Part shown: piece after piece, positions 6,649 to 23,908 of the stretch
Layout of the letters: every line of letters begins with the position of its first letter
Position numbering within the stretch: the stretch's first letter is position 1
Source: Azospirillum lipoferum 4B
GTDB taxonomy: Bacteria; Pseudomonadota; Alphaproteobacteria; Azospirillales; Azospirillaceae
Length of the DNA: 64,000 nucleotides
Assembly (NCBI RefSeq): GCF_000283655.1
Contig: NC_016586.1
Span: 511,001-575,000, forward strand
Direction of reading: 5' to 3'
Program-made: the position numbers and the translations under genes
The notes under the pieces: generated by a model
What the model was told of the DNA's origin: nothing
What the model saw: only the letters and a program-made list of their open reading frames with translations
Databases searched by the model: none

Positions 6649-7728
6649 CTACCTGTCGGTGCAGGAAATGCAAGGATCGACGGAGGCCTGGATGATCGAC
6701 AGGTCGGCCAGCGGCTGTCCCGCCACCATCGCCTCGATGGCCGGAATGTTCACGAAGGACGGCGTCCGGATCTTCACCCGCGCCGGGGTGGCCCCGCCTT
6801 CCGACGCAACATAGTAGAAGGCCTCGCCGCGCGGCGCCTCGGTGCGGATGGTGGCCTCGCCGGTGGGAATCTCCGGCAATCCCTGCGTCGCCCGCAAAGG
6901 CCCGGCCGGCAGGGACAGCAGCGCCTCGCGGATCAGGCGGATGCTCTCCACCATCTCCAGCGCCCGCACCACCACACGGGCCAGCACGTCGCCCTCCGGC
7001 CGGACGATGCTTTCGAAGCCGAGATCGGCATAGGACAGATAGGGCTGGTCCTTGCGCACGTCGATGTCGAGGCCGGAGGCGCGGGCGACCGGACCGACCA
7101 CCGCCCATTCCACCGCCTGCTCCCGCGTCAGCCGGCCGACGCCGCGGGTGCGGGCGAGCGCCGTCGGGTTCTCGGTGAAGGTCGGGATGACGATCTCCGC
7201 CAGCCCCTTCGACAGGGTGTCGAGCGCCGGCAGATACCGCTTGGGATCGGGGATGTCGCGAAGGACGCCGCCGATGCAGTTCATGCCGTAATTGACCCGG
7301 TTGCCGCTGATCGCCTCCAGCGTGTCCATCACCAGCTCGCGAAGCGTGAACACCTCCATGAACAGGGAATGGAAGCCGATGTCCTCCGCCCCCACCCCGG
7401 CCCACAGCAGATGGGAGTGCAACCGCTCCAGCTCGGCGATGATGGTGCGGATGTGGGCGGCGCGCTTGGGTATCTCGATCCCGGCGATGGTCTCCGCCGC
7501 CATGCAGAAGGTCATGGCATGGGTGTTGGAACAGATGCCGCAGACACGCTCGATCAGGGTGATGACCTCGACCCAATTGCGCTTCTGCGCCAGCAGCTCG
7601 ATGCCGCGGAAGCTGAAGCCGACCTCGACGGTGGCGCTGTCGATGACTTCGCCGCGGCACTGGACCTTGACCTTGAAGGGTTCCTCCAGCGCCGGGTGAT
7701 AGGGGCCGAGCGGAAAGCTGTAGGGCAT
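6649..7728 (-). CDS. Group 4 [NiFe] hydrogenase large (catalytic) subunit, NuoD/HycE-like
   Basis: A 359-residue protein related to the 49-kDa subunit of complex I. Unlike complex I it keeps both CxxC pairs that bind the Ni-Fe site: ERVCGICSNTH (C63, C66) and DPCISCTDR (C353, C356). This makes it a probable true hydrogenase rather than an Ehr or Nuo relative. The protein stops at R359 immediately after the second motif. It therefore lacks the C-terminal tail that maturation proteases remove in most [NiFe] hydrogenases, a state also described for CO-linked CooH. It is the last gene of the AOR-hydrogenase operon, 12 bp after the NuoC-like gene. It should sit on the cytoplasmic arm and reduce protons with electrons from the small subunit. 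Confidence 0.93.
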   Translation of the reverse strand: MPYSFPLGPYHPALEEPFKVKVQCRGEVIDSATVEVGFSFRGIELLAQKRNWVEVITLIERVCGICSNTHAMTFCMAAETIAGIEIPKRAAHIRTIIAELERLHSHLLWAGVGAEDIGFHSLFMEVFTLRELVMDTLEAISGNRVNYGMNCIGGVLRDIPDPKRYLPALDTLSKGLAEIVIPTFTENPTALARTRGVGRLTREQAVEWAVVGPVARASGLDIDVRKDQPYLSYADLGFESIVRPEGDVLARVVVRALEMVESIRLIREALLSLPAGPLRATQGLPEIPTGEATIRTEAPRGEAFYYVASEGGATPARVKIRTPSFVNIPAIEAMVAGQPLADLSIIQASVDPCISCTDR

Positions 7729-7740
7729 GGCCGGAAACTC

Positions 7741-8226
7741 CTAGGAACGGGCCGGGTTGGTCGCGAGCGGCGAAACGGGCTTGCGCGCGACCTCCGCCGG
7801 GCGGCACATCGCTTCGCGCAGGGTGGCTGTGTCGATGCCGTCGGGCCGGATCAGCGGCACCGGGTTGGGATGGCCGGGAAACTCCACCGCGAACAGGTCG
7901 CGGATTTCCCGCTCCGCCCAGGACGCCGCGCGGACGGTCGGCGCCAGCGACGCGAGCGCGCCGTTGCGGGTGCAGGTCTTCACGTTGATGACGCGATGCT
8001 CGTCGATGTAGTGGTAGATCACCGTCGATTCGGCGTCCCCGGCATGCGGGATGGCGGTGACGGTGCCGAGCCGGATGCCGAGCTCCGCCATGGCGGCGGC
8101 CATCGCCTCCACCTCCAGCAGCGGGGCATCGGCCCACAGGGCGCCGTCGCGCTCGACGACGCTGCGGACGCCGGGGATGGCCTGCAGCGCATCGGCAAGC
8201 CGGCGGGGATTGCGGTCAGCGGTCAT
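7741..8226 (-). CDS. Hydrogenase NuoC-like (30 kDa) subunit
   Basis: A 161-residue protein starting MTADRNPRRL at the ATG at 8226, overlapping the end of the upstream ferredoxin gene by 11 bp, which suggests coupled translation. The C-terminal half carries the complex I 30-kDa signature in the form AASWAEREIRDLFAVEFPGHPN, followed by a short PLIRPDG tail. In HycE and HyfG this domain is fused to the catalytic subunit; here it is a separate gene. Its role is structural, supporting the catalytic subunit near the quinone-like cavity of complex I relatives. The position between the NuoI-like and NuoD-like genes supports the call. Confidence 0.88.
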   Translation of the reverse strand: MTADRNPRRLADALQAIPGVRSVVERDGALWADAPLLEVEAMAAAMAELGIRLGTVTAIPHAGDAESTVIYHYIDEHRVINVKTCTRNGALASLAPTVRAASWAEREIRDLFAVEFPGHPNPVPLIRPDGIDTATLREAMCRPAEVARKPVSPLATNPARS

Positions 8227-8740
8227 GATGGGCCTCCTCCACCGGAACGAAGGCGGTGCGCAACTTCTCGCTCGCCGCCCGGCGCCTGCACTCCGGGCAA
8301 TAGCCGCGCTCGGCCTCCCCCACGCCCCAAAGCGCCTCCATGACCGCATCCGGCAGCGGCACATGGGCGGCACCGCAGCGGGTGCAGGGCTGCAGCCGGA
8401 TGACGCTTTCCAGCCGCAGCCCGTCGCCGGCCGCGCTGTTCATCGCACCGGGCGCATCGGCCTCCAGGCTGATCGCCCGCGTCGGGCAGTTCTGCGCGCA
8501 CAACCCGCAGAAGGAGCATTGTCCGATGAAGAAATGCCAGGACACCGATACGCCGGGATCCTGGGTGAAGGTGATGGCCTTCGGCGCGCAGACGAAGGCG
8601 CAGGTGCCGCAGGCGGTGCAGCGCGTGGCGTCATGGGCCAGCGCGCCCCGGTAGACCGGCGGCACCTCCGGCATGTCGGCAGGACCCCGGGTGCGCGGGG
8701 GGCGCAGCAGGTTGCCGAGGATGGTTTTCAGCATGGCCAT
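8216..8740 (-). CDS. Hydrogenase NuoI/HycF-like 2x[4Fe-4S] subunit with CxxC-CxxC tail
   Basis: A 174-residue electron-transfer subunit. Two classic ferredoxin motifs have cysteines at 41, 44, 47, 51 and at 75, 78, 81, 85 (CTACGTCAFVCAP and CSFCGLCAQNCP). After these, CTRC (119-122) and CPEC (148-151) form a probable zinc-ribbon-like tail. NuoI lacks such a tail, but formate-hydrogenlyase subunits of the HycF/HyfH type have a similar one. The start at 8740 has GAGGAGGA about 8 nt upstream. It should pass electrons from the AOR side to the NuoB-like subunit. The gene overlaps the following nuoC-like gene. Confidence 0.9.
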   Translation of the reverse strand: MAMLKTILGNLLRPPRTRGPADMPEVPPVYRGALAHDATRCTACGTCAFVCAPKAITFTQDPGVSVSWHFFIGQCSFCGLCAQNCPTRAISLEADAPGAMNSAAGDGLRLESVIRLQPCTRCGAAHVPLPDAVMEALWGVGEAERGYCPECRRRAASEKLRTAFVPVEEAHHDR

Positions 8741-8753
8741 GGTGGAGTCCTCC

Positions 8754-9662
8754 TCAGCGGACCAGCGTCGCGGCCAGGGTGACCGCCGACGCCAGCCCGC
8801 CCCAGACCCAGTAAAAGCGGAAGGCCTGAGTCAGCCGCAGCCGCGCCGTGGCGGTCGCCAACAGCGTCACCCCGCCCAGCACCGCGACGCCCGCCGCCAG
8901 ATAGACCAGCAGGTTGACCAGCGGCCAGGGCGTGGCCGGAATGAAGACCACGGCGAACAGCTCGGTCAGCAGAACCAGCTCGACGGCATGCGACAGCTTG
9001 AACAGGGCCAGCGGCGGGCCGCTGTATTCGATATGGCTGTCGGCAACGATCTCATGCTCGGCATTGGCGATGGAGAAGGGGTTCAGCTTCATCCGCGCCG
9101 GCAGCGCCAGCAGGAAGGTCAGTGCCGCCAGCAGATGGACAAGACCATAAGGGGCGGCCTGCAGCGCGCTCATCTGGAAGCTTCCGGCCTCCTGTGCCAT
9201 GGCGATGATGGCGACCAGGAAGGGAAGGTTGTAGGCCAGCGACAGCAGCGCCTCGCGCATCGCCGCGACCTGCCCGTAGATGGAGCGGCTGACATAGCCG
9301 GCCAGCACCTCGCACAGGATCGGCACCTCCATCAGGTACAGCAGCAGCACGACGTCGCCCGGCAGCGACGGCGCCGGGTTGCCGGGCAGCGGCACGATGG
9401 CAAGCGCAGCCGTCACCGAAGCCAGCGACACCACCGGCAGAGCCAGGAAGATGCCGCGGTTGACGCCGCGGGGGATCACCGTCTCCTTGCCCAGCAGCTT
9501 CATGAAGTCGAAGAAGGGCTGGAAGAAGGGCGGTCCCTGCCGCCCCTGCAGCCGCGCCACCAGCTTGCGCATGAACCACAGCTCCAGCCATCCCAGCGGG
9601 GCGGCGAGCAGCAGTCCCGGCCAGACGACGAAGGCGACCAGATAGGACCAGACGGCGTTCAT
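8754..9662 (-). CDS. Hydrogenase membrane anchor subunit, NuoH/HycD-like
   Basis: A 302-residue membrane protein with about eight hydrophobic segments. The conserved cytoplasmic loop of the NuoH family is visible early (WFMRKLVARLQGRQGPPFFQ, about residues 28-47). A second loop, PFSIANAEHEIVADSHIEYS, follows near 205-225. NuoH-type subunits join the hydrophilic arm to the membrane arm. The ATG at 9662 overlaps the stop of the NuoB-like gene by 4 bp (ATGA), so translation is probably coupled. The longer upstream frame is only the shadow of the neighbouring gene. Confidence 0.92.
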   Translation of the reverse strand: MNAVWSYLVAFVVWPGLLLAAPLGWLELWFMRKLVARLQGRQGPPFFQPFFDFMKLLGKETVIPRGVNRGIFLALPVVSLASVTAALAIVPLPGNPAPSLPGDVVLLLYLMEVPILCEVLAGYVSRSIYGQVAAMREALLSLAYNLPFLVAIIAMAQEAGSFQMSALQAAPYGLVHLLAALTFLLALPARMKLNPFSIANAEHEIVADSHIEYSGPPLALFKLSHAVELVLLTELFAVVFIPATPWPLVNLLVYLAAGVAVLGGVTLLATATARLRLTQAFRFYWVWGGLASAVTLAATLVR

Positions 9663-10138
9663 GACAGCCTCCCCCGCCGGCTTTCCAGCTGGCTCTTGGT
9701 GGCGCCGTCCTCCAGCAGCGTGGCGGCGCGGGCGATGCCGTCGAGGATGGCCTGCGGCCGCGGCGGGCAGCCGGGCACCCAAACATCGACCGGAACGACG
9801 CTGTCCAAGGACTCGCTCAGCACCAGCGGACTGCCGGCGAAGACGTTGCCGGATGCCGGGCAGGACCCCAGCGCCACCACCGCCTTCGGATTGGGCACCT
9901 GCGCGTAGATGTCGAGGATCGCCTCGCGCGACCGCAGCGTCAGCGTGCCGGAGATCAGCACGATGTCCGCATGCTTGGGCGTGCCGTGCAGCTCGACCCC
10001 CAGCTGTTCGGCATCGTAGCGCGGACTCAGCAGCGGCGTGATCTCGATGTCGCAGCCGTTGCAGGACCCGGCATTCAACCGGCAGATCCAGGGCGACCGG
10101 CGGCGCGAGATCGCGATGACCCGTTCGATCAGGTTCAT
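9659..10138 (-). CDS. Hydrogenase small subunit, NuoB/HycG-like
   Basis: A 159-residue subunit holding the [4Fe-4S] cluster nearest the catalytic site. The four expected ligands are present: C26 and C29 in NAGSCNGCDIE, C93 in GSCPASGNVF, and C124 in GCPPRP. Glycine and serine spacing follows group 4 hydrogenases and NuoB. No signal peptide is present, so it faces the cytoplasm. The gene overlaps both neighbours by 4 bp (the NuoN-like gene upstream and the NuoH-like gene downstream), as expected for subunits made in fixed ratio. Confidence 0.93.
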   Translation of the reverse strand: MNLIERVIAISRRRSPWICRLNAGSCNGCDIEITPLLSPRYDAEQLGVELHGTPKHADIVLISGTLTLRSREAILDIYAQVPNPKAVVALGSCPASGNVFAGSPLVLSESLDSVVPVDVWVPGCPPRPQAILDGIARAATLLEDGATKSQLESRRGRLS

Positions 10139-11328
10139 TTCACACCTCCTGCCGTTTCAGTCGGCAGTGCGGCAACATGGGGATGCGGCTCGGCCGCAGG
10201 ACGAAGCCCGTTGGGAGCCAGCCCGAACAGCACCGGGGCGATGGCGAAGGCCAGCAGCACCAGGGCTGCGGCACGCGGCAGGGGCCGCCCCGCGACCGGC
10301 GCCTCCACTGGCCCCAGCCACACCCGGTGGATGGCGCGGACATAGCAGAGGAGCGCCATGGCCGACGACGCGTAGAGCACGGCCAGCAGCAGCGGCCCGC
10401 CCAACTCCGCCCCCGCCAGATAAAGCCGCCAATGCCCGATGAAGCCCAGCGTCGGCGGAATGCCGATGAAGCCCAGCGCCCCCAGCATGAAGGCGGCGCT
10501 GGCCACCGGCAGCGGGGTGGACAGGCCGCGGTCGTCCAGCGTCACCGCCCGGCCGAGATGCCATTCCGCCGCCCCGACCGCGCCGAACAGCACGATCTTG
10601 CCCATCGCATGGCCGAGGATGCCGAACCACGCCCCGGCCATGCCGTCCGCCCCGCCGGCCACCAGCCCAAGCAGCAGATAACCCATGTCGTCGATGGAGG
10701 AGAAGGCCAGCATCGGCTTCAGCTCCCGCTGGGCCAACGCCAGCAGCGCCGCCCCCAGCAGCGACAGCACCGCCAGCCCGATCCACAGCGGCGCGAAATC
10801 CACGAAGATCCACGGCGCTACGTCACGCAGGGCCAGCAGTTCGCAGAAGGCGCCGACATCGACCACCGCGACGATCAGCGCCGTCGTCATCGCCGAAGAC
10901 GCGCGGGCCACCGCCGGCAGCCAGAAATAGACCGGCACCAGACCAAGCTTCAGCGCCACGCTGACCAGCAGCAACGCCACCGCCAGCCTGTCCCAGGGCG
11001 CGGCCGGGCGCACCGCGCCAAGCTGGATCACCGCCAGCGCCGTCCAGCCGCACAGGGCGGCGAGAGCGACCGCGGTCAGATATTGGCGGGCGGCGGCGCG
11101 GGCCTCTGCGGTCCCGCCGCTCCACACCATGCCCACCGCCAGGAACTCGGCGGCTGAGGCCAGCAGGGTGGCGGCCCAACCATGGCCGGCCAGCCGGGCG
11201 GCGACCGCCAGGGCGACGGTGGCGGCGGCGAAGCGCCACCATCCGCCATTCCCCTGCGGGATCACGCGGGCATAGAGGCCGACGCCGAGCGCGATTGCCA
11301 GAAAGAGGGGGATCAGCACCATGTCCAT
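10135..11328 (-). CDS. Hydrogenase antiporter-like membrane subunit (NuoN/HyfF-like)
   Basis: A 397-residue, highly hydrophobic protein with about 11-12 membrane segments, belonging to the proton-conducting NuoL/M/N family. Residues typical of the channel are visible: KLGLVPVYFWLPAVARASSA (lysine and the WLP motif) near 140, and RELKPMLAFSSIDDMGYLLLG near 205, the discontinuous-helix region. It is short for NuoN (usually about 480), lacking part of the N-terminal helices. It lies between the NuoL-like and NuoB-like genes. It probably pumps or conducts protons or sodium as the hydrogenase turns over; the ion cannot be told from the sequence. Confidence 0.88.
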   Translation of the reverse strand: MDMVLIPLFLAIALGVGLYARVIPQGNGGWWRFAAATVALAVAARLAGHGWAATLLASAAEFLAVGMVWSGGTAEARAAARQYLTAVALAALCGWTALAVIQLGAVRPAAPWDRLAVALLLVSVALKLGLVPVYFWLPAVARASSAMTTALIVAVVDVGAFCELLALRDVAPWIFVDFAPLWIGLAVLSLLGAALLALAQRELKPMLAFSSIDDMGYLLLGLVAGGADGMAGAWFGILGHAMGKIVLFGAVGAAEWHLGRAVTLDDRGLSTPLPVASAAFMLGALGFIGIPPTLGFIGHWRLYLAGAELGGPLLLAVLYASSAMALLCYVRAIHRVWLGPVEAPVAGRPLPRAAALVLLAFAIAPVLFGLAPNGLRPAAEPHPHVAALPTETAGGVK

Positions 11329-11349
11329 GATGGATGCCTCCGGCTGCGC

Positions 11350-13200
11350 TCAGACCAGCCACACGCCGGCCAGCGCCGCGACCGCGACGAGACCGATGGC
11401 CAGGAGCGGACGATCCTCGAAAGCGGCACCTGACGCGGTCTGCGCCGCACCGGCCACACGGGTCAGGCTGCGCCAGATCCGCAGGTAGGCGGGATCGGGA
11501 TCGAGCGAATAGACGGGATGGAAGGCGTGTTCGGCAATCTCGGCGAAGTCGACCGCGCCGGGCCGGTCGCCGGCCGGCAGCGGCTCGCCGCCGGAATAGA
11601 CCGAGACCAGCCCGGGGGCCGGCGCATGGGCCAGCCGGTAGACCAGCAGTCCCAGCATGGCCGATGCCAGCACCACCACGCCGCCGACGGTCATCGCGAT
11701 GCTGCCGCGGTCGGTCAGGATGCCGAGCCAGCTCATCTGCACCGCCCAGTCGAAACCGAGCGAGCGCACGGCCGGCGCCACCACCGGCACCATCAGCAGC
11801 TGCGGCGCCAGCCCGAAGACCAGGCACAGCCCGGCCATGGAACCCATGCCGGCCAGCATGCTGGGCGACGCCTCGTGGATGTGCTTGCCGAGCAGCGCCT
11901 TGGACGGCACGCCGTAAAAGGCGTTGACGGTGGCCTTCAGGAAGGAGAAGGCGGTCAGGATGCTGCCGATCCAGCCGACCAGCACCACCAGCAGCAGCCC
12001 CTTGTCGAGCGCTGCGCCGAACAGCAGCCATTTGGCGACGAAGCCGTTGGTCAGCGGCACGCCGGCGATGGAGGCGGCGGCGACGATCCACACCTTCGCC
12101 GTCCCCGGCATCGCGGTGGCGAGCCCGCCCAACTCCCGCAGGTCGCGGGTGCCGGTGGCGTGCTGTATGGCGCCGGCGCACATGAACAGCGTGCCCTTGA
12201 ACAGCGCATGGCTCAGGCAATAGAACAGCCCGGCCGCCAGCCCGAGATCGGTGCCGAGCGCCAACCCGACGACTATGTAGCCGAGCTGGCTGACGGTGTG
12301 GAAGGCCAGCAGCCGCTTCAGGTCGGTCTGCGCCATGGCGAAGATGACGCCGACCAGGATGGTGACGCAACCGACCGCCAGCAGCGGCACCTCCAGCGCG
12401 GCCTGCCACTGCCCATCGCCGATCACATACATGCGGGCGATCAGATAGACGCCTGCCTTGACGTAGCAGGCGGAATGCAGCAGCGCCGACACCGGGGTCG
12501 GGGCGTTCATCGCCTCCGGAATCCAGGTGTGCAGCGGGAACATCACCGACTTCGCCATCGCCGCGACGATGAACAGCGCCGCGACGCCGGAGGTGAAGGC
12601 GGTGGCGACGGCCGGATCGGTCCAGACCAGCGTGCCGGCGCGGGAATAGACCAGCACCAGCCCGATCAGGAAGCCATAGCCCGCCAGATGGGTGATGACC
12701 AGCACCTTGCGGGCGCCGTCGGTCGCCGCCCTCTGCCGGTACCAGAAGCCGACCAGACTGTAGGAACACAGCCCGATCACCTCCCACGCCATATAGGCGC
12801 CCAGCATGTCGGCAGCGCTCGCCAGCAGCAGCAGCCCGGCGATGAAGACCAGCATGATCGCGTAGAAGCGCGTCGTGCCCTGCTCTTCATGTTCCATGTA
12901 GCGGACGGAGAAAAGCAGGATGGCGGCGCCGATGCCGGTGCCCATCAGCATGAACAGGAGCCCGAGCCCGTCGATGCGCAGAGCGAGGGAGAACGGCCCG
13001 TCCCACACCGGCAGCAGCGGGGCCTCCATCGCGATGCCGGCCATGCCGGCCGGCACCAGCGGCAGCGTGGCGAGGAAGGAGGCGAAGACCGCCGCGGTCG
13101 CAAGCACGCCCTTGCCGACCGGCGTCAGCAGCCGGGCAAGCAGCAGCTGCAGGACGAAGCCGACAAGCAGAAGAAGAATGGGGAGCGTTACAAAGGTCAT
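11350..13200 (-). CDS. Hydrogenase antiporter-like membrane subunit (NuoL/HyfB-like)
   Basis: A 616-residue membrane protein of the complex I antiporter family, with about 14-16 membrane segments. The best landmarks are YMAWEVIGLCSYSLVGFWY, SVMFPLHTWIPEAMNAPTPV, SALLHSACYVKAGVYLIARM, and LKRLLAFHTVSQLGYIVVGL. These carry the conserved glutamate, lysines and histidines of the ion path. A C-terminal hydrophilic stretch (about 545-590) precedes a last helix. The size is close to NuoL. It is the first of the hydrogenase subunits in the transcript, 14 bp after moaD. Two such subunits in the complex argue for ion translocation. Confidence 0.92.
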   Translation of the reverse strand: MTFVTLPILLLLVGFVLQLLLARLLTPVGKGVLATAAVFASFLATLPLVPAGMAGIAMEAPLLPVWDGPFSLALRIDGLGLLFMLMGTGIGAAILLFSVRYMEHEEQGTTRFYAIMLVFIAGLLLLASAADMLGAYMAWEVIGLCSYSLVGFWYRQRAATDGARKVLVITHLAGYGFLIGLVLVYSRAGTLVWTDPAVATAFTSGVAALFIVAAMAKSVMFPLHTWIPEAMNAPTPVSALLHSACYVKAGVYLIARMYVIGDGQWQAALEVPLLAVGCVTILVGVIFAMAQTDLKRLLAFHTVSQLGYIVVGLALGTDLGLAAGLFYCLSHALFKGTLFMCAGAIQHATGTRDLRELGGLATAMPGTAKVWIVAAASIAGVPLTNGFVAKWLLFGAALDKGLLLVVLVGWIGSILTAFSFLKATVNAFYGVPSKALLGKHIHEASPSMLAGMGSMAGLCLVFGLAPQLLMVPVVAPAVRSLGFDWAVQMSWLGILTDRGSIAMTVGGVVVLASAMLGLLVYRLAHAPAPGLVSVYSGGEPLPAGDRPGAVDFAEIAEHAFHPVYSLDPDPAYLRIWRSLTRVAGAAQTASGAAFEDRPLLAIGLVAVAALAGVWLV

Positions 13201-13214
13201 GGCTCGCCCCTTTC

Positions 13215-13487
13215 TCAGCCGCCGGCCAGCGGCGGAAAGATGAAGACGTCGGAATCCGGGGTCAGCGGCGTGTCCAGCCCTTGCAGGCCGCGCACGTCCT
13301 GGCCATTGACCAGGACGATGGCGAAGCCGGCCAGTTCACCGTCCTTCATGATCCAGCGGGCGAAATTGGGACCGTATTCGGCGACCAGATCGTTCAGCAG
13401 ATCGCGGACGGTGGCCGCCGGCCGCTCCCGGATCTCGCTGCGTTTCTTTGTGGCTTCGCGCAGAAGCGCGAAATAGGAGACTTTCAT
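13215..13487 (-). CDS. MoaD/ThiS-family small protein of the AOR operon
   Basis: A 90-residue ubiquitin-fold protein ending in LAGG, the diglycine tail used as a thiocarboxylate sulfur carrier when the dithiolene of molybdopterin is built. MoaD-like genes commonly sit beside tungsten AOR genes, where they are thought to support making the tungstopterin. It starts MKVSYFALLREATKK at the ATG at 13487. It lies between the AOR gene and the first hydrogenase gene on the same strand. Specialisation for the tungsten cofactor is inferred from position only. Confidence 0.88.
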   Translation of the reverse strand: MKVSYFALLREATKKRSEIRERPAATVRDLLNDLVAEYGPNFARWIMKDGELAGFAIVLVNGQDVRGLQGLDTPLTPDSDVFIFPPLAGG

Positions 13488-13517
13488 GGCACAGCTGCCT
13501 TCCTGCCTCGATCACAG

Positions 13518-13553
13518 CCGGTCCGCCGCCGCAGGGGCGCGGCGGCGAACCGG
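13518..13553 (-). promoter_or_regulatory. Strong stem-loop inside the AOR-hydrogenase operon
   Basis: CCGGT-C-CGCCGCCGC (13518-13532) pairs with GCGGCGGCG-A-ACCGG (13539-13553). This gives a 14-bp stem with one mismatch and a 6-nt loop, in the 71-bp gap between AOR and moaD. There is no T-run on the minus strand. It could protect or process the mRNA, or partly attenuate it, so that AOR and ferredoxin are made in excess of the membrane subunits. The pairing is seen; the role is inferred. Confidence 0.5.
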
Positions 13554-13558
13554 TGGGA

Positions 13559-15364
13559 TCAGGCCAGCGCCAGGGCGCTCAGCTTCTCCTTGGTCGGAAC
13601 GCCTTGGGCGTCCCAGCCGCGGGCACCGTAATAGAGCGGCAGCATTTCCGGCAGGCGGCTGACCGCCCCCTTCGATGCGCCGGTCACGATCGGCTCATTG
13701 AGCAGGCGCGGCGGCAGGGTGTCGTCGGCGGCGGTCAGACCGGACTTCAGGTTCCACAGCCGCTCCAGGTTCCAGACCCGTTCGCCGGCTTCGATGAAGC
13801 TGTCGCCGGTGTAGGCGAAGCCGGTCAGCGCCGTCATCAGCTCGGCGAATTCCGGCGCACCGATGCCGAAGGTGGTGAACAGGCAGGAGCCGGTCGAATC
13901 CAGCGCCGCCGTCAGGTTCTGGAACAGGGCCACCAGTTCGGCCTTGCCGTCGATGCTGTCCTTGTCGACCTTCACCGGCACGCCCAGCACTTCCGGGCTG
14001 ATGGTATAGCCGCGGACATGGCAGCCGCCGCGGTTGTTGGTGGCATAGTTCAGGCCGATGCCCTGCACCGCGCGCGGGTCATAGGCCGGCATCTCCTGCT
14101 TCTTGACGGTCATCGACAGTTCCGGATGGCCGTAGAGGCTCGCCAGCCGGTAGGAGCCCAGCGCCAGCTTCTTGCCGAAGCCCTGGCCGAGACCGGTCAG
14201 CCGCACCGCCTCCACCATCGCGTCGGCGTTGCCGAAGTCCAGTTCCAGCCCTTCGGTGTCTTCGAGCGTGATGATACCGCGGTTGAACAGTTCCATCGCA
14301 CAGGCGACCGTTCCGCCCATGGAGATGGTGTCGAGGCCGTATTCGTTGCAATAATAGTTGGCCTTGATCACCGCATCCAGATCGTCGATCCGGCAGTCCG
14401 GACCGAAGCCCCAGGCGGTCTCGTACTCCGGCCCCTCGCCCTCGCCCTTGTATTTGGGGTTGGTGACCTTGGTGGCGCGGCCGCAGGAGATGATGCAGGA
14501 GAAGCAGCCCTTCGGCCGCTGCAGCTGGTTGGCCGCCAGCGTTTCGCCGCCCACCTTGTCGGCGGTCGGGAAATGGCCGTCCTGGAAGTTGCCGGTCGGC
14601 AGCCCGCCCACCGAATTCAGGATGTTGACCAGCACGTTGGTGCCGTAGAGCCGCAAGCCGGTGCCGCCGACCGGATGCTCCTTGATCATGGTGCTGGCCT
14701 TGGCGACCGCGGCCAGGAAGGCCTCCTTGTCGGCGACGGTCACGGCGCCGGTGCCGCGCACCACCACCGCCTTCAGGTTCTTCGATCCCATCACCGCGCC
14801 GACGCCGGTGCGGCCGGCGGCGCGCTGCATGTCGTTCATGATCGAGGCGATGTAGGACAGCTTTTCGCCCGCCGGTCCGATGCAGGCGATCTTGGCGTCG
14901 GCCGCCGTCTCCTCGTTCAGCGCCTCGGTGGTCTCCGGCACGTCCTTGCCCCACAGGTGTGCGGCGTCGCGGATCTCCACCTTGTCGTCCTGGATCCACA
15001 GATAGACCGGCTTGGCCGCGCGGCCTTCCAGGATCAGCATGTCGTAGCCGGCGTATTTCAGCTCCGGCCCCCAGGCCCCGCCGGAGTTCGAGGCGGCGAT
15101 GGTGCCGGTCAGCGGCCCCTTGGTGACGACGTCGTAGCGCCCGGCCGACGGCGCGAAGGTGCCGGTCATCGGCCCGGAGGCGAAGATCAGCTTGTTCGCC
15201 GGCGACAGCGGATCCACCGTGGGATCGACCTCGTCATACATGTACTTCGTGCCCAGCCCGCGGGCGCCGATGTAATCGCGCGCCAGGTCGGGCTTCAGCG
15301 CTTCGGTCGTGATCTTGCCGGTGCCGAGATCGACCCGAAGGATTTTTCCAATCCAGCCATGCAT
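13559..15364 (-). CDS. aor: Tungsten-type aldehyde:ferredoxin oxidoreductase
   Basis: A 601-residue AOR-family enzyme that oxidises aldehydes to acids, or reduces acids when electrons are strongly reducing. The cofactor is a bis-tungstopterin plus one [4Fe-4S] cluster. Cluster ligands C287, C290, C294 ([12 protein letters not shown]) and C494 (TGSCLF) are at nearly the positions recalled for the Pyrococcus enzyme. Pterin-binding landmarks include GARGLGTKY near the start, [18 protein letters not shown] near 183-200, and [12 protein letters not shown]313 (GPEYE) and H449 (GGCHVRG) match expected active-site residues. GGAGG stands 7 nt before the ATG at 15364. The gene follows the ferredoxin gene by 2 bp. 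The natural substrate is unknown. Confidence 0.95.
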
Positions 15365-15366
15365 GA

Positions 15367-15843
15367 TCAGACCTCCGCGAAGGCGTTCTTGAGCTTGGCG
15401 GCGAAGGAGCGCTTGCGCGCCTGCGCCGAGACGGTGTCCTCGACCCATTCGAGCGCGTGGGTGGGGCAGATCGCCGCGCAGGACGGCGCACCGTCGCAGG
15501 TGTCGCATTTCAGGATCTGCAGGCCCTGGAAATCCCAGGAGGCGCAGCCGAAGGGGCAGGCCTGGACGCACATCTTGCAGCCGATGCACTTATCTGCATC
15601 CAGCTCCACCTGCCCGTTCGCCGGGTTGCGGTGCATGGCCTTGGGCATGCAGACGGCAACGCAGGCGGGATCCTTGCACTGCTGGCACATCATGGGAACG
15701 GAGAAGCCTTCGCGCTCCCACGTATAGACATGGATGCGGGAGGCTTTCGGGCGAAAGCTCCCCTCATGCTCCATGGAGCAAGCCAGTTCGCAGTTACGGC
15801 ATCCGGTGCATTTGTCCGGATGGATCATCAGCATCATGCTCAT
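15367..15843 (-). CDS. Four-cluster ferredoxin subunit of AOR (AorA-like)
   Basis: A 158-residue polyferredoxin. Cysteines at 12/15/18/22, 53/56/61/65, 86/89/92/96 and 113/116/122/126 give four [4Fe-4S] motifs. This is the arrangement of electron-transfer subunits such as the AorA protein of bacterial AOR complexes and of HycB/DmsB relatives. No signal peptide is present, so it works in the cytoplasm. The ATG at 15843 has GAGGAGG about 10 nt upstream. It is the first gene of the operon and only 2 bp from AOR. It should carry electrons from AOR to the hydrogenase, probably through the NuoI-like subunit; the docking is inferred. Confidence 0.92.
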
Positions 15844-16303: not shown

Positions 16304-16317
16304 ATGATTTACATCAA
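16304..16317. promoter_or_regulatory. FNR/Anr-like operator
   Basis: ATGAT-TTAC-ATCAA matches the FNR-type consensus TTGAT-N4-ATCAA at 9 of 10 defined positions. It lies 92 bp before hypA and 461 bp before the AOR operon start, in the AT-rich part of the divergent spacer. It fits oxygen-dependent control of a hydrogenase locus; binding is inferred. Confidence 0.6.
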
Positions 16318-16408: not shown

Positions 16409-16750
16409 ATGCATGAACTGTCGCTGTGCGAAAGCATCGTCGCAATGGTGGCGGAAAGCGCCCGCCGTGAGGGATTGCACCGGGTCACCCGCGTGACGGT
16501 CGATATCGGCGTGGCCTCCGCCATCGATCCGGACGCCCTGCTGTTCTGCTTTCCCATCGTGACGGAGGGCACGGCCGCGGCGGAGGCGGAGCTCGCCGTC
16601 AACCGCATCGCGCTGAAGGCCCGCTGTGCCGGCTGCGGCACCGACTTCTCCCCGGAAACGCTGATCTCCCCCTGCCCCGCCTGCGGTGGCCATGACCGCA
16701 CCCTCTTGGCCGGCCGCGACATGCGGGTGGTGTCGTTCGAGGGGGAGTGA
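16409..16750 (+). CDS. hypA: Hydrogenase nickel-insertion protein HypA
   Basis: A 113-residue maturation factor. It begins with the obligatory MHE (H2 is the nickel ligand) and has the zinc-binding pair CAGC (73-76) and CPAC (89-92). HypA delivers nickel to [NiFe] hydrogenase large subunits with HypB. It is divergent from the AOR-hydrogenase operon across the FNR-like box, so the two are probably co-regulated. No hypB, hypC, hypD, hypE or hypF is in the window, so the rest must be supplied from another locus. Its presence supports the view that the hydrogenase binds nickel. Confidence 0.95.
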   Translation: MHELSLCESIVAMVAESARREGLHRVTRVTVDIGVASAIDPDALLFCFPIVTEGTAAAEAELAVNRIALKARCAGCGTDFSPETLISPCPACGGHDRTLLAGRDMRVVSFEGE

Positions 16751-16838: not shown

Positions 16839-17783
16839 TCAGGCGCGGGACAGCAGGCGGTTCTTCTCCATCGCCACCTGCTCCGTCCGGGCGTTGGCGA
16901 TCACCGCCTTCTGGAGCTTCTCGAAGGCACGCACCTCCAGCTGCCGGACGCGCTCGCGCGAGACATGGAAGGTCTGGCTCAACTCCTCCAGCGTCAGCGG
17001 CTCGTCACGCAGGCGGCGGGCGACCAGGATCCGCCGCTCGCGGTCGTCCAGCACGCCCAGTCCCAGCTTCAGGAACTGCTGGCGCCGACGCCGTTCCTCC
17101 GAATCGGCAAGCGTCGTTTCCTGGTCGGGCCGGTCGTCGGCCAGCAGGTCCAGCCATTCGGCGTCGCCGTCTTCCGACAGCCCGACATTCAGCGAACGGT
17201 CGTTGCCCAGGCGGCGGTTCATCTCCACCACCTCTGCCTTCGACACGTTCAGCTCGGTCGCGATGCTCTCCACCGCGTCCGGCGACAGGTCGCCGCTCTC
17301 CAGTTCCTGCATCCGCGCCTTCAGGCGGCGCAGGCTGAAGAACAGCTTCTTCTGGCCGGCCGTGGTGCCGATCTTCACCAGCGACCAGTTGTGCAGGACA
17401 TATTCCTGGATCGCCGCACGCACCCACCAGGACGCATAGGTGGCGAAGCGGAAGCCCTTGGAAGGATCGAACTTCTGCGCCGCCTGCATCACGCCCACAT
17501 TGCCTTCCGCCACCAGATCGGCCAGCGGCAGGCCATAGCCGAGATAGCCGCGGGCCATCTTGACGACGAGCCGCAGATGGCTGCCGACCAGCTGGTCGAG
17601 TGCCGCCGGGTCCTGGTGGTCGTGCCAGCGGACGGTCAGCTCATGCTCCCGCTCGGGTGTCAGGTACTGGTACTTGCGGGCATCCTGCAGATAGAGCTGC
17701 ATCGGTTCGGCGGTACGGGGTTCTGCTGCACGGGGTTGGGTGGCGCGGGTTTGAACGGTATGGGTCTCGGCGTCTCGCTGCAT
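16839..17783 (-). CDS. rpoH: RNA polymerase sigma-32 factor (RpoH)
   Basis: A 314-residue heat-shock sigma factor. Region 2 is clear (GSHLRLVVKMARGYLGYGLP, LADLVAEGNVGVMQAAQKFD, FRFATYASWWVRAAIQEYVL), and the RpoH-box area reads KIGTTAGQKKLFFSLRRL. Region 4 ends with EELSQTFHVSRERVRQLEVR. The ATG at 17783 (MQRDAETH) has GGGAGAG upstream. It adds about 28 residues before the usual RpoH start MQLYLQDARKYQYL, which itself lacks a ribosome site. Alphaproteobacteria often have more than one rpoH; which paralogue this is cannot be told here. No heat-shock promoter was recognised upstream. Confidence 0.93.
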   Translation of the reverse strand: MQRDAETHTVQTRATQPRAAEPRTAEPMQLYLQDARKYQYLTPEREHELTVRWHDHQDPAALDQLVGSHLRLVVKMARGYLGYGLPLADLVAEGNVGVMQAAQKFDPSKGFRFATYASWWVRAAIQEYVLHNWSLVKIGTTAGQKKLFFSLRRLKARMQELESGDLSPDAVESIATELNVSKAEVVEMNRRLGNDRSLNVGLSEDGDAEWLDLLADDRPDQETTLADSEERRRRQQFLKLGLGVLDDRERRILVARRLRDEPLTLEELSQTFHVSRERVRQLEVRAFEKLQKAVIANARTEQVAMEKNRLLSRA

Positions 17784-18522
17784 GGTGTCTCTGTCTCTCC
17801 CAGCCGACGGAAACGGCGCCACAGGGGATTGCCCCCCGCGCCGTCCGGGTCGGTCCTGTTGACGTTGGGTTTGTTTGTTTATTGCGTTGCCGGCATTCGA
17901 CGCTGCCGGACGGCGTGCACCGGGGCGGTGCCGGATCGTGAAGGGGTCCTCTCCAGCCCCGCGGGCAGCGCCGCGACCGGGGAAGGATCGCGGCAGCCGG
18001 CACGCCACGGGGCCGGAGAGGAGAGGCAGGGCCACGCCGTTCAGCGCAGCCGAACCGAAGGGAACGGATCGATCACAAAAGAGGAAACCATCCTGCAGGG
18101 GCCGGCGCGTTCAACGGCGCAACGAACTCTATATAGGAATTTCGGCAACGGATTAAAGGGGCGCCCAGGCGAATTTTCCTGGCACCTTATCTTACGCTTT
18201 GACCCGCGTCTGATTTGGCGGGAACTTCGCCTGAAATAGGACGACGCTTCGCCGGTTTCAAGCCCATCGCTCTGGCACCATGCCTCCACATGGCGCCACA
18301 GGAACTTCATTCGAATTTCGAATCATTTTCATGAATCATCACAAGATATCCCGCATCATTCCGGCAAAAAATCCACACACACCCCATTTTGTATAGAAAT
18401 TAAATGTATAGTCTGCGATTTTTCTCTTTGTGTTATTTTTCGGATGTCACTTGCAGTCTTACATCTTCTGCGCATACGGTCGGTTCATTTCCAGCATCCA
18501 CCGACCCGAGGCTAGAGCCGAC
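17784..18522. other. Long divergent spacer upstream of rpoH and the pyruvyl transferase gene
   Basis: A 739-bp gap. The rpoH-proximal part (to about 18110) is GC-rich and its frames look like extensions of rpoH without homology. A TATATA element on the minus strand (18130-18135) could belong to an rpoH promoter. From about 18300 to 18500 the DNA is strikingly AT-rich for this genome and holds the inverted repeat listed separately. I see no gene in it. Confidence 0.5.
18309..18323. repeat. Short inverted repeat, possible operator
   Basis: ATTCGAA-T-TTCGAAT is a perfect 7-bp inverted repeat with a one-base spacer in the AT-rich stretch about 200 bp before the pyruvyl transferase gene. Symmetry and position suggest a regulator site; the regulator is unknown. 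Confidence 0.45.
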
Positions 18523-23790: not shown

Positions 23791-23908
23791 GCGCTGCGAA
23801 AGGCCTTGATATGGATCAATTCGGAATTTTCGCAGGAACACGGGCAAAGGCAGGGGCGACAGGAGCGCGGAAGGGGCTGCGGCCGCGCTCCTCAGGCGTC
23901 GCGAACGG

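Follow-up and report, generated by a model that had tools for sequence, protein, structure and literature searches.

Does the ten-gene cluster at positions 6649 to 15843 of the window analysed here, a 64,000-nucleotide stretch of Azospirillum lipoferum 4B (contig NC_016586.1, positions 511,001 to 575,000 of the forward strand), encode a single membrane complex in which an aldehyde oxidoreductase (AOR) passes its electrons to a group 4 [NiFe] hydrogenase? A preliminary description of this DNA had proposed such a coupling from the gene order of this one genome, and the proposal is now supported by conserved synteny, by invariant redox ligands and by the exchange of the tungsten-type enzyme for a molybdenum-type partner at related loci. 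We estimate at roughly 0.7 the probability that the operon encodes one membrane complex acting as an aldehyde:proton oxidoreductase, an 'aldehyde hydrogenlyase' that would be the counterpart of formate hydrogenlyase (FHL). The best evidence for this putative activity is that two unrelated aldehyde oxidoreductases are found on one adapter and hydrogenase.

The ten genes of the locus

The cluster consists of ten co-directional open reading frames (ORFs) on the minus strand, all of which have a match to a protein family. The same-strand set announced earlier (a ferredoxin, an AOR, a MoaD and seven hydrogenase subunits) is therefore borne out:

15367..15843, minus strand: aorA, ferredoxin subunit of 158 residues with 16 Cys for four [4Fe-4S] clusters (Pfam Fer4 families)
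13559..15364, minus strand: aorB, AFOR-type pterin aldehyde oxidoreductase of 601 residues (PF02730 and PF01314)
13215..13487, minus strand: MoaD/ThiS-like pterin sulfur carrier with a C-terminal Gly-Gly (PF02597 and TIGR01687, over cut-off)
11350..13200, minus strand: L, NuoL/MrpA/MbhH-like antiporter subunit of 616 residues (PF00361, PF00662)
10135..11328, minus strand: N, NuoN-like short antiporter subunit of 397 residues (PF00361, profile positions 82-286 of 294)
9659..10138, minus strand: B, NuoB/MbhJ/HycG-like small subunit with four Cys for the proximal cluster (PF01058)
8754..9662, minus strand: H, NuoH-like membrane anchor subunit (PF00146)
8216..8740, minus strand: I, NuoI/HycF-like two-cluster subunit with a C-terminal CxxC...CxxC pair (Fer4 families)
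7741..8226, minus strand: C, NuoC-like subunit (PF00329)
6649..7728, minus strand: D, NuoD-like [NiFe] hydrogenase large subunit with both CxxC pairs (PF00346 and PF00374)

The genes are separated by 2 bp (aorA-aorB), 14 bp (MoaD-L), 21 bp (L-N), 13 bp (H-I) and 12 bp (C-D), or overlap by 4 bp (N/B and B/H) and 11 bp (I/C). The coordinates thus agree with the earlier account of small gaps and overlaps except for one of 71 bp, which lies between aorB and MoaD. The D subunit and AorB of the window are 83-94% and 84-95% identical, respectively, to those of four named Azospirillum loci. In strain B510 and A. thermophilum the set (hereafter the cassette) lies on plasmid records of 723,779 and 672,413 bp, and the genes past the large subunit differ.

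Ligand conservation was followed in an alignment of 17 cassettes, the window and 16 other loci, the C-like gene being retrieved by tblastn in 16 of the 17. The 16 Cys of AorA, the cluster Cys of AorB, and the four, twelve and four Cys of B, I and D are all invariant in this set. AorB carries both the AFOR_N and AFOR_C domains over cut-off, and its alignment with solved aldehyde oxidoreductases spans the full length; 9mqx_D, 9g7j_A, 1aor_A and 8c0z_A are its best solved relatives. The alignment to 1aor confirms the claim that the cluster cysteines and active-site residues of the AOR are kept: the [4Fe-4S] ligands C287/C290/C294/C494, the PEYE and GGCH motifs, and E315 and H449, the equivalents of Glu313 and His448 of Pyrococcus furiosus AOR, are all retained. 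The aldehyde-site Glu and His are conserved in the 17 AorB proteins checked. Judged by its AFOR domains, cluster Cys and active-site Glu and His, AorB is an AOR sensu stricto, predicted to bind tungsten and to oxidise aldehydes. At residues 489-494, the hydrogenase-linked AorB proteins read DxxG[S/A/G]C, the printed sequences of 1aor and 9g7j DxxGLC, and 9mqx DxxGFC. The MoaD Gly-Gly is present in 17/17 rows, followed by two extra residues in one row.

AorA has its best solved relatives in 9mqx_E (E 3.9e-43) and 8c0z_C, an aldehyde oxidoreductase small subunit, and is homologous to HycB, the adapter of FHL (7z0s_B, E 1.8e-18). We propose that it serves as the electron adapter between the aldehyde oxidoreductase and the hydrogenase. 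Its first cluster motif begins at residue 12, and neither a twin-arginine translocation (Tat) signal nor a transmembrane domain is apparent, as judged by eye.

On the hydrogenase side, the two Ni-Fe CxxC pairs attributed to the large subunit were recovered as C63/C66 and C353/C356, invariant in 17/17 cassettes, and the protein ends with DPCISCTDR. The best PDB match of D is MbhL (6cfw_L, 264 bits), followed by HycE (7z0s_E, 211 bits). The B subunit, with C26/C29/C93/C124 invariant in 17/17, scores 163 bits with MbhJ (6cfw_J) against 115 bits with HycG (7z0s_G). The best NCBIfam match of the I subunit, under its cut-off, is NF006076 (hydrogenase 4 subunit H); its 12 Cys are invariant in 17/17 cassettes, including those of the C-terminal CxxC...CxxC pair, which is perhaps a metal-binding docking domain. 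Both antiporter-like subunits carry charged residues invariant in the 17 cassettes: L, with MrpA (7qru_A) as best PDB match, keeps Lys and Glu residues including E140, K217, K248 and K390, and N aligns to the C-terminal half of NuoN/MbhH. The gene set of a group 4 energy-converting [NiFe] hydrogenase is complete as far as its Ni-Fe CxxC pairs, small subunit, NuoH-like anchor and antiporter-like subunits can tell, and an H2 activity coupled to ion transport is predicted.

Conserved synteny and exchangeable dehydrogenases

Searches starting from AorB in 285 genomes of three lineages found the hydrogenase adjoining at 24 of the 26 loci with an AorB at least 66% identical (12/12 in Azospirillum, 9/9 in Anaerolineaceae and 3/5 in Holophagae). 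The gene order is repeated in three phyla, Pseudomonadota, Chloroflexota and Acidobacteriota, and the ten-gene neighbourhood is not a matter of chance. With these counts and the invariant redox ligands, the survey of conserved synteny suggested by the preliminary description came out in favour of its proposal. The cassette is present in named strains of two phyla, the Azospirillum strains and Levilinea saccharolytica KIBI-1, Ornatilinea apprima P3M-1 and Longilinea arvoryzae KOME-1, and several of the conserved loci stem from metagenome-assembled genomes (MAGs). Counted apart from the 26 are the loci of a Chloroflexi MAG (L017) and of a Rhodopila MAG, where the cassette is seemingly split over two contigs (L010, L113).

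Of the 45 Azospirillum genomes searched, 16 have an AOR, with 17 loci in all; identity is 84-99% at 12 of these and 51-52% at the other 5. At each of the 12 close loci AorB is preceded by AorA and followed by MoaD and the L gene, and hypA also accompanies the Azospirillum cassettes. No L gene was found at the five 51-52% loci within 1.5 kb past the match, or over 18 kb for the copy of genome G401. This second AOR type occurs in five Azospirillum genomes (L101-L105); G401 has both types, and a gene for a pyridine-nucleotide oxidoreductase comes after its 52% AOR (L121), just as for the NAD-linked Aromatoleum AOR. In 147 genomes of Anaerolineaceae, the family of Levilinea, the L gene comes next at each of the 9 AorB loci at 66-71%, eight of which have the full set and one of which (G856) ends at a contig end; 2 further AOR loci at 52% have no L gene next. 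A hydrogenase thus adjoins none of the seven 51-52% AORs (L101-L105, most read only 1.5 kb past the gene, and L143 and L144). The class of the Holophagaceae MAG, Holophagae, gave 5 AorB loci at 68-69% in 93 genomes, 3 of them with the hydrogenase. In class samples searched with the large subunit, matches were obtained in 2/385 alphaproteobacterial genomes (E up to 1e-90), the second (G022) being a 45% Ech-like cluster, and in 1/298 genomes of the class of Levilinea (E up to 1e-110); the cassette is therefore rare. That it replaces FHL in Azospirillum is rejected: an FHL-type large subunit occurs in 15/45 genomes, in 8/12 with the cassette against 7/33 of the others.

To the conservation of the cassette is added the exchange of its dehydrogenase. 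A large-subunit scan with a four-row alignment confirmed 555 loci, of which the best 80 comprise 9 with a tungsten-type AOR, 2 with a molybdenum-type AOR, 3 with CO dehydrogenase (CODH), 46 distant loci, mostly from Clostridia, and 3 truncated on the informative side (L010, L015, L019). No match to AOR, molybdenum-type AOR or CooS was found at 17 acidobacterial loci of these 80, 11 of which offer at least 4 kb of readable DNA upstream of L. Mrp-like small genes were recognised by eye at three of the 46 distant loci (L043, L054, L066), which were read gene by gene together with the end of L044.

The molybdenum-type gene of two Anaerolineaceae loci (L014, L016) matches NF045668, molybdopterin-dependent aldehyde oxidoreductase, with 1624 and 1613 bits (cut-off 1100), and the domains of its product differ from those of AFOR; it is non-homologous to AorB. 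Both loci carry an AorA-like adapter, then the same seven hydrogenase genes; in L014, XdhC and MobA-like genes lie downstream of the molybdenum-type gene. Longilinea arvoryzae (G431) and the MAG AS27yjCOA_78 (G856) have both the tungsten- and the molybdenum-type versions. When the 147 Anaerolineaceae genomes were searched with D, the 14 loci obtained comprised 8 with a tungsten-type AOR, 2 with a molybdenum-type AOR, 2 interrupted by the end of a contig and 2 distant loci (51-52%) with no match to AOR, molybdenum-type AOR or CooS; therefore, an aldehyde oxidoreductase stands at 10/10 close loci of this family with readable upstream DNA. The CODH front end is a CooS (TIGR01702 over cut-off) in three members of the clade (L021, L023, L024). 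Two of these, from Anaerolineae MAGs (L023, L024), read ferredoxin, CooS and an enlarged L, then B, H, I, C and D, and are a CO-linked cousin. A CooS reference search of the 385 alphaproteobacterial genomes, which include no known positive, gave 0 matches, a result that carries no weight.

A branch supported at 100/100 in the tree of 35 large subunits sets apart the 29 that are AOR-linked, CODH-linked or partner-less. Fourteen tungsten-type sequences of Azospirillum and Anaerolineaceae form a group (100/98), the 2 molybdenum-type ones adjoin it (union 98/94), and the 3 Holophagae tungsten-type ones fall with the CODH-linked and acidobacterial members (97/96). A single clade of all large subunits linked to a tungsten-type AOR is rejected by the approximately unbiased (AU) test (p 0.00026, for a group suspected from an earlier tree). 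An independent mark of this split is the enlarged L of the Holophagae/CODH/acidobacterial group, of 966-1025 residues at the 8 loci measured against 611-618 elsewhere, with an N-like match inside it at the loci with printed ORFs. A single set of 20 rows in the AorB tree (100/99) holds every one of the 18 hydrogenase-linked AorB, together with two Holophagae AorB beside NuoE/NuoF genes. The AU test does not separate two pairings from one old pairing with a later replacement of the partner, the second of which is also compatible with the AorB tree. Resolution is weak in the AorA tree (9 of 28 inner branches starred; one-clade test p 0.46), where the molybdenum-type AorA group with that of the Longilinea tungsten-type locus (89/90, not starred). 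Taken together, the dehydrogenase of this hydrogenase clade is swapped between a tungsten-type AOR, a molybdenum-type aldehyde oxidoreductase, CODH, or none detected. Since kinship within the groups inflates the figure of 24, the independent support comes from the three phyla and from the molybdenum-type and CODH swaps.

A putative aldehyde hydrogenlyase and its alternatives

In the proposed complex, the aldehyde would be oxidised to the acid by AorB, whose bis-pterin site would hold tungsten (or molybdenum). The electrons would then pass from the AorB cluster through the four AorA clusters and those of I and B to the Ni-Fe site of D, where protons would be reduced to H2; this path is drawn by analogy with FHL, because HycB is homologous to AorA. 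Aldehydes at about -560 mV and H2 at -414 mV (values given in the accessible part of PMC9304861) differ by about 146 mV, or 28 kJ per mol of two electrons, which would in principle allow the H-, N- and L-like subunits of the membrane to export ions. The role of the complex would be the disposal of aldehyde electrons. Aldehyde oxidation is the common denominator of the tungsten- and molybdenum-type front ends, and CODH is likewise a low-potential donor. From sequence comparison we infer the complex itself, its electron path, its activity and direction, the ion pumping, and the use of tungsten rather than molybdenum.

Several observations weigh against this proposal. The other two of the five Holophagae AorB loci have no hydrogenase and adjoin NuoE/NuoF/2Fe-2S genes, co-directional in L137 (8680-14500) and convergent in L117 (1375-7000); there the acceptor of the aldehyde module is apparently of the bifurcating type, and AorAB-MoaD is therefore not tied to the hydrogenase. 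The three lineages searched with AorB were picked because hydrogenase-first searches had shown the cassette there, so the figure of 24/26 holds for those lineages, and the neighbour count leaves aside AOR paralogues of ten genomes, whose identity is 33-45% and, in one case, 53%. AorA and AorB distances track those of L, B, H and D (r 0.83-0.95), a correlation that is mostly species history. Finally, acidobacterial members of the clade lack a detected dehydrogenase, so that soluble ferredoxin could feed this hydrogenase type.

One alternative hypothesis is that no stable complex is formed, AorAB reducing soluble ferredoxin and the hydrogenase being a co-regulated Ech/Mbh-like ferredoxin:proton oxidoreductase. 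The closest solved relative of the hydrogenase, Mbh, is indeed ferredoxin-fed, and the absence of a dehydrogenase gene in the acidobacterial members points the same way. Against it, the ten-gene operon has no separate gene for a free ferredoxin, and the HycB-type adapter is retained in both the tungsten- and molybdenum-type loci read, an argument tempered by the molybdenum enzyme of Desulfovibrio gigas, which is not known to need an adapter subunit. A chain of this kind in trans, from AOR through ferredoxin to Mbh, has been proposed for Wolframiiraptor (accessible part of PMC9246946). We regard this arrangement as unlikely for the cassette, though worth keeping in view. A different substrate for AorB, with a low potential as in the action of BamB on benzoyl-CoA, is suggested by the non-aldehyde enzyme that the WOR family includes (PMC13328260, in the part available) and by the small residue that replaces Leu or Phe in the motif given above. 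Such a substrate appears quite improbable given the conserved aldehyde-site Glu and His in 17 proteins, the best solved matches, which are aldehyde enzymes by name, and the swap with the molybdenum aldehyde oxidoreductase family. We give still less credit to a reverse operation, in which H2 oxidation powered by ion influx would reduce carboxylic acids to aldehydes. The Aromatoleum AOR does reduce acids, even with H2 directly (PMC12096430, in part), but the reaction is about 28 kJ/mol uphill under standard conditions (values of PMC9304861), and the partners found in the clade (CODH and aldehyde oxidoreductases of two unrelated types) donate electrons at potentials lower than that of H2. H2-driven acid reduction would be paid for with the ion gradient and is the less likely direction.

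Beyond the single operon, we think it fairly probable that the aldehyde hydrogenlyase is a distinct complex, built on a modular hydrogenase lineage whose low-potential dehydrogenases can be exchanged. Tungsten and molybdenum aldehyde oxidoreductases of unrelated fold would then be alternative front ends to one kind of Fe-S adapter and ion-pumping hydrogenase, perhaps metal-dependent isoenzymes in the same cell. Pelobacter carbinolicus makes a molybdenum-dependent acetaldehyde-oxidising isoenzyme under tungsten limitation (accessible part of PMC4275255), a pattern that suggests by analogy how the doubled set could be used.

The region upstream of aorA holds two further features:

16409..16750, plus strand: hypA, divergent nickel chaperone gene (PF01155), adjoining the cassette in the Azospirillum loci
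16304..16317, strand not assigned: FNR/ANR-like box in the intergenic region of hypA and aorA (TTGATGTAAATCAT when read towards aorA), with one mismatch to TTGAT-N4-ATCAA

HypD, needed for assembly of the Ni-Fe cofactor, was found in all 17 Azospirillum genomes examined for it, of which 12 carry the cassette and 5 lack it, and maturation can therefore be supplied in trans. For the box, with TTGAT-N4-ATCAA presumed to be the FNR/ANR consensus, the window holds 4 matches with at most one mismatch against 0.52 expected; TTGAT and ATCAT are retained in 8/8 aligned Azospirillum rows (two apparently the same sequence) and the spacer is variable, so induction at low oxygen would be expected. A perfect box of this type, TTGATATGGATCAA, lies at 23806-23819 of the window. 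Beside hypA stands a sigma-70-family factor gene (16839-18035), and in B510 rpoH is next to hypA. No credible riboswitch was found upstream of aorA with Rfam, the two matches being far under their gathering scores. There is no sigma-54 signal in the window either, since promoters with at most 2 mismatches gave 28 matches against 29 expected. One Holophagae cassette has a divergently oriented gene for a sigma-54-dependent regulator (L136, 15588-17522), and another such gene (L005, 8302-9858) precedes a Peptoclostridium AOR gene.

No description of an AOR-hydrogenase operon was found in open-licence PMC text (preprints excluded, few subscription papers), nor in the accessible parts of PMC13328260, PMC12096430, PMC6365974, PMC11291895, PMC9304861, PMC8542988, PMC9246946 and PMC4275255. 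If the proposal is true, aldehydes would join formate, CO and ferredoxin as direct donors of energy-converting hydrogenases, in a hydrogenase lineage that would evolve by swapping its front-end dehydrogenases. Energy conservation from aldehyde oxidation would be directly testable in culturable bacteria, namely Azospirillum, Levilinea, Ornatilinea and Longilinea.

Comparison with known systems

The comparison with FHL and with CooF made in the preliminary description is apt, since CooS occurs in three members of this hydrogenase clade. As in FHL (FHL-1/FHL-2, Hyc/Hyf), a pterin dehydrogenase and a four-cluster adapter are combined with a membrane group 4 [NiFe] hydrogenase. Unlike FHL, the dehydrogenase is an AFOR-type AOR instead of the unrelated FdhF, C and D are separate subunits, and the large subunit lies outside the four-row Hyc/Hyf clade (100/100), is not of HycE/HyfG type and ends at its second CxxC motif, with no HycI annotated beside the B510 and A. 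thermophilum cassettes; the locus is therefore not an FHL. The CO dehydrogenase-linked hydrogenase of Rhodospirillum also places a low-potential dehydrogenase and an Fe-S adapter ahead of a group 4 hydrogenase, with CooS and CooF where the operon has AOR and AorA. Pyrococcus Mbh, Mrp-linked and ferredoxin-fed, offers the closest solved large and small subunits. An identity with it is excluded by the antiporter genes, which are of the L and N types only: the operon has no Mrp-type small subunits, and a NuoL- and NuoN-like pair and a dedicated dehydrogenase instead. Nor is the locus a respiratory complex I, since the Ni-Fe Cys are present and no NuoEFG is found among the ten genes. The aldehyde-to-H2 chain of D. 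gigas performs the same overall reaction (aldehyde and H2O to acid and H2) with soluble separate proteins, a molybdenum enzyme and no membrane energy-converting hydrogenase.

Among tungsten enzymes, AorA and AorB are homologous to WorS and WorL of WOR classes III (WorLSN, NAD) and IV (WorLSABC, bifurcating), as defined in the accessible part of the 2026 classification (PMC13328260). The best solved match, 9mqx, also includes an NADH-binding 51 kD-type subunit. The ten genes include no FAD/NAD subunit, which sets the locus apart from class III, and none of the NuoE/NuoF-like and 2Fe-2S subunits of class IV, which are present beside L137 and L117; class V, where WorS has a Tat signal and/or a transmembrane domain, is not matched by the start of AorA as judged by eye. 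Taken alone, AorAB would be class II by the subunit rules given there. A hydrogenase-linked class is not among the five set out in the part of that classification available. The proposed complex, if true, would add an acceptor arrangement for tungsten enzymes beyond these five, the electrons being received by a membrane [NiFe] hydrogenase and not by FAD/NAD or NuoEF-like subunits.

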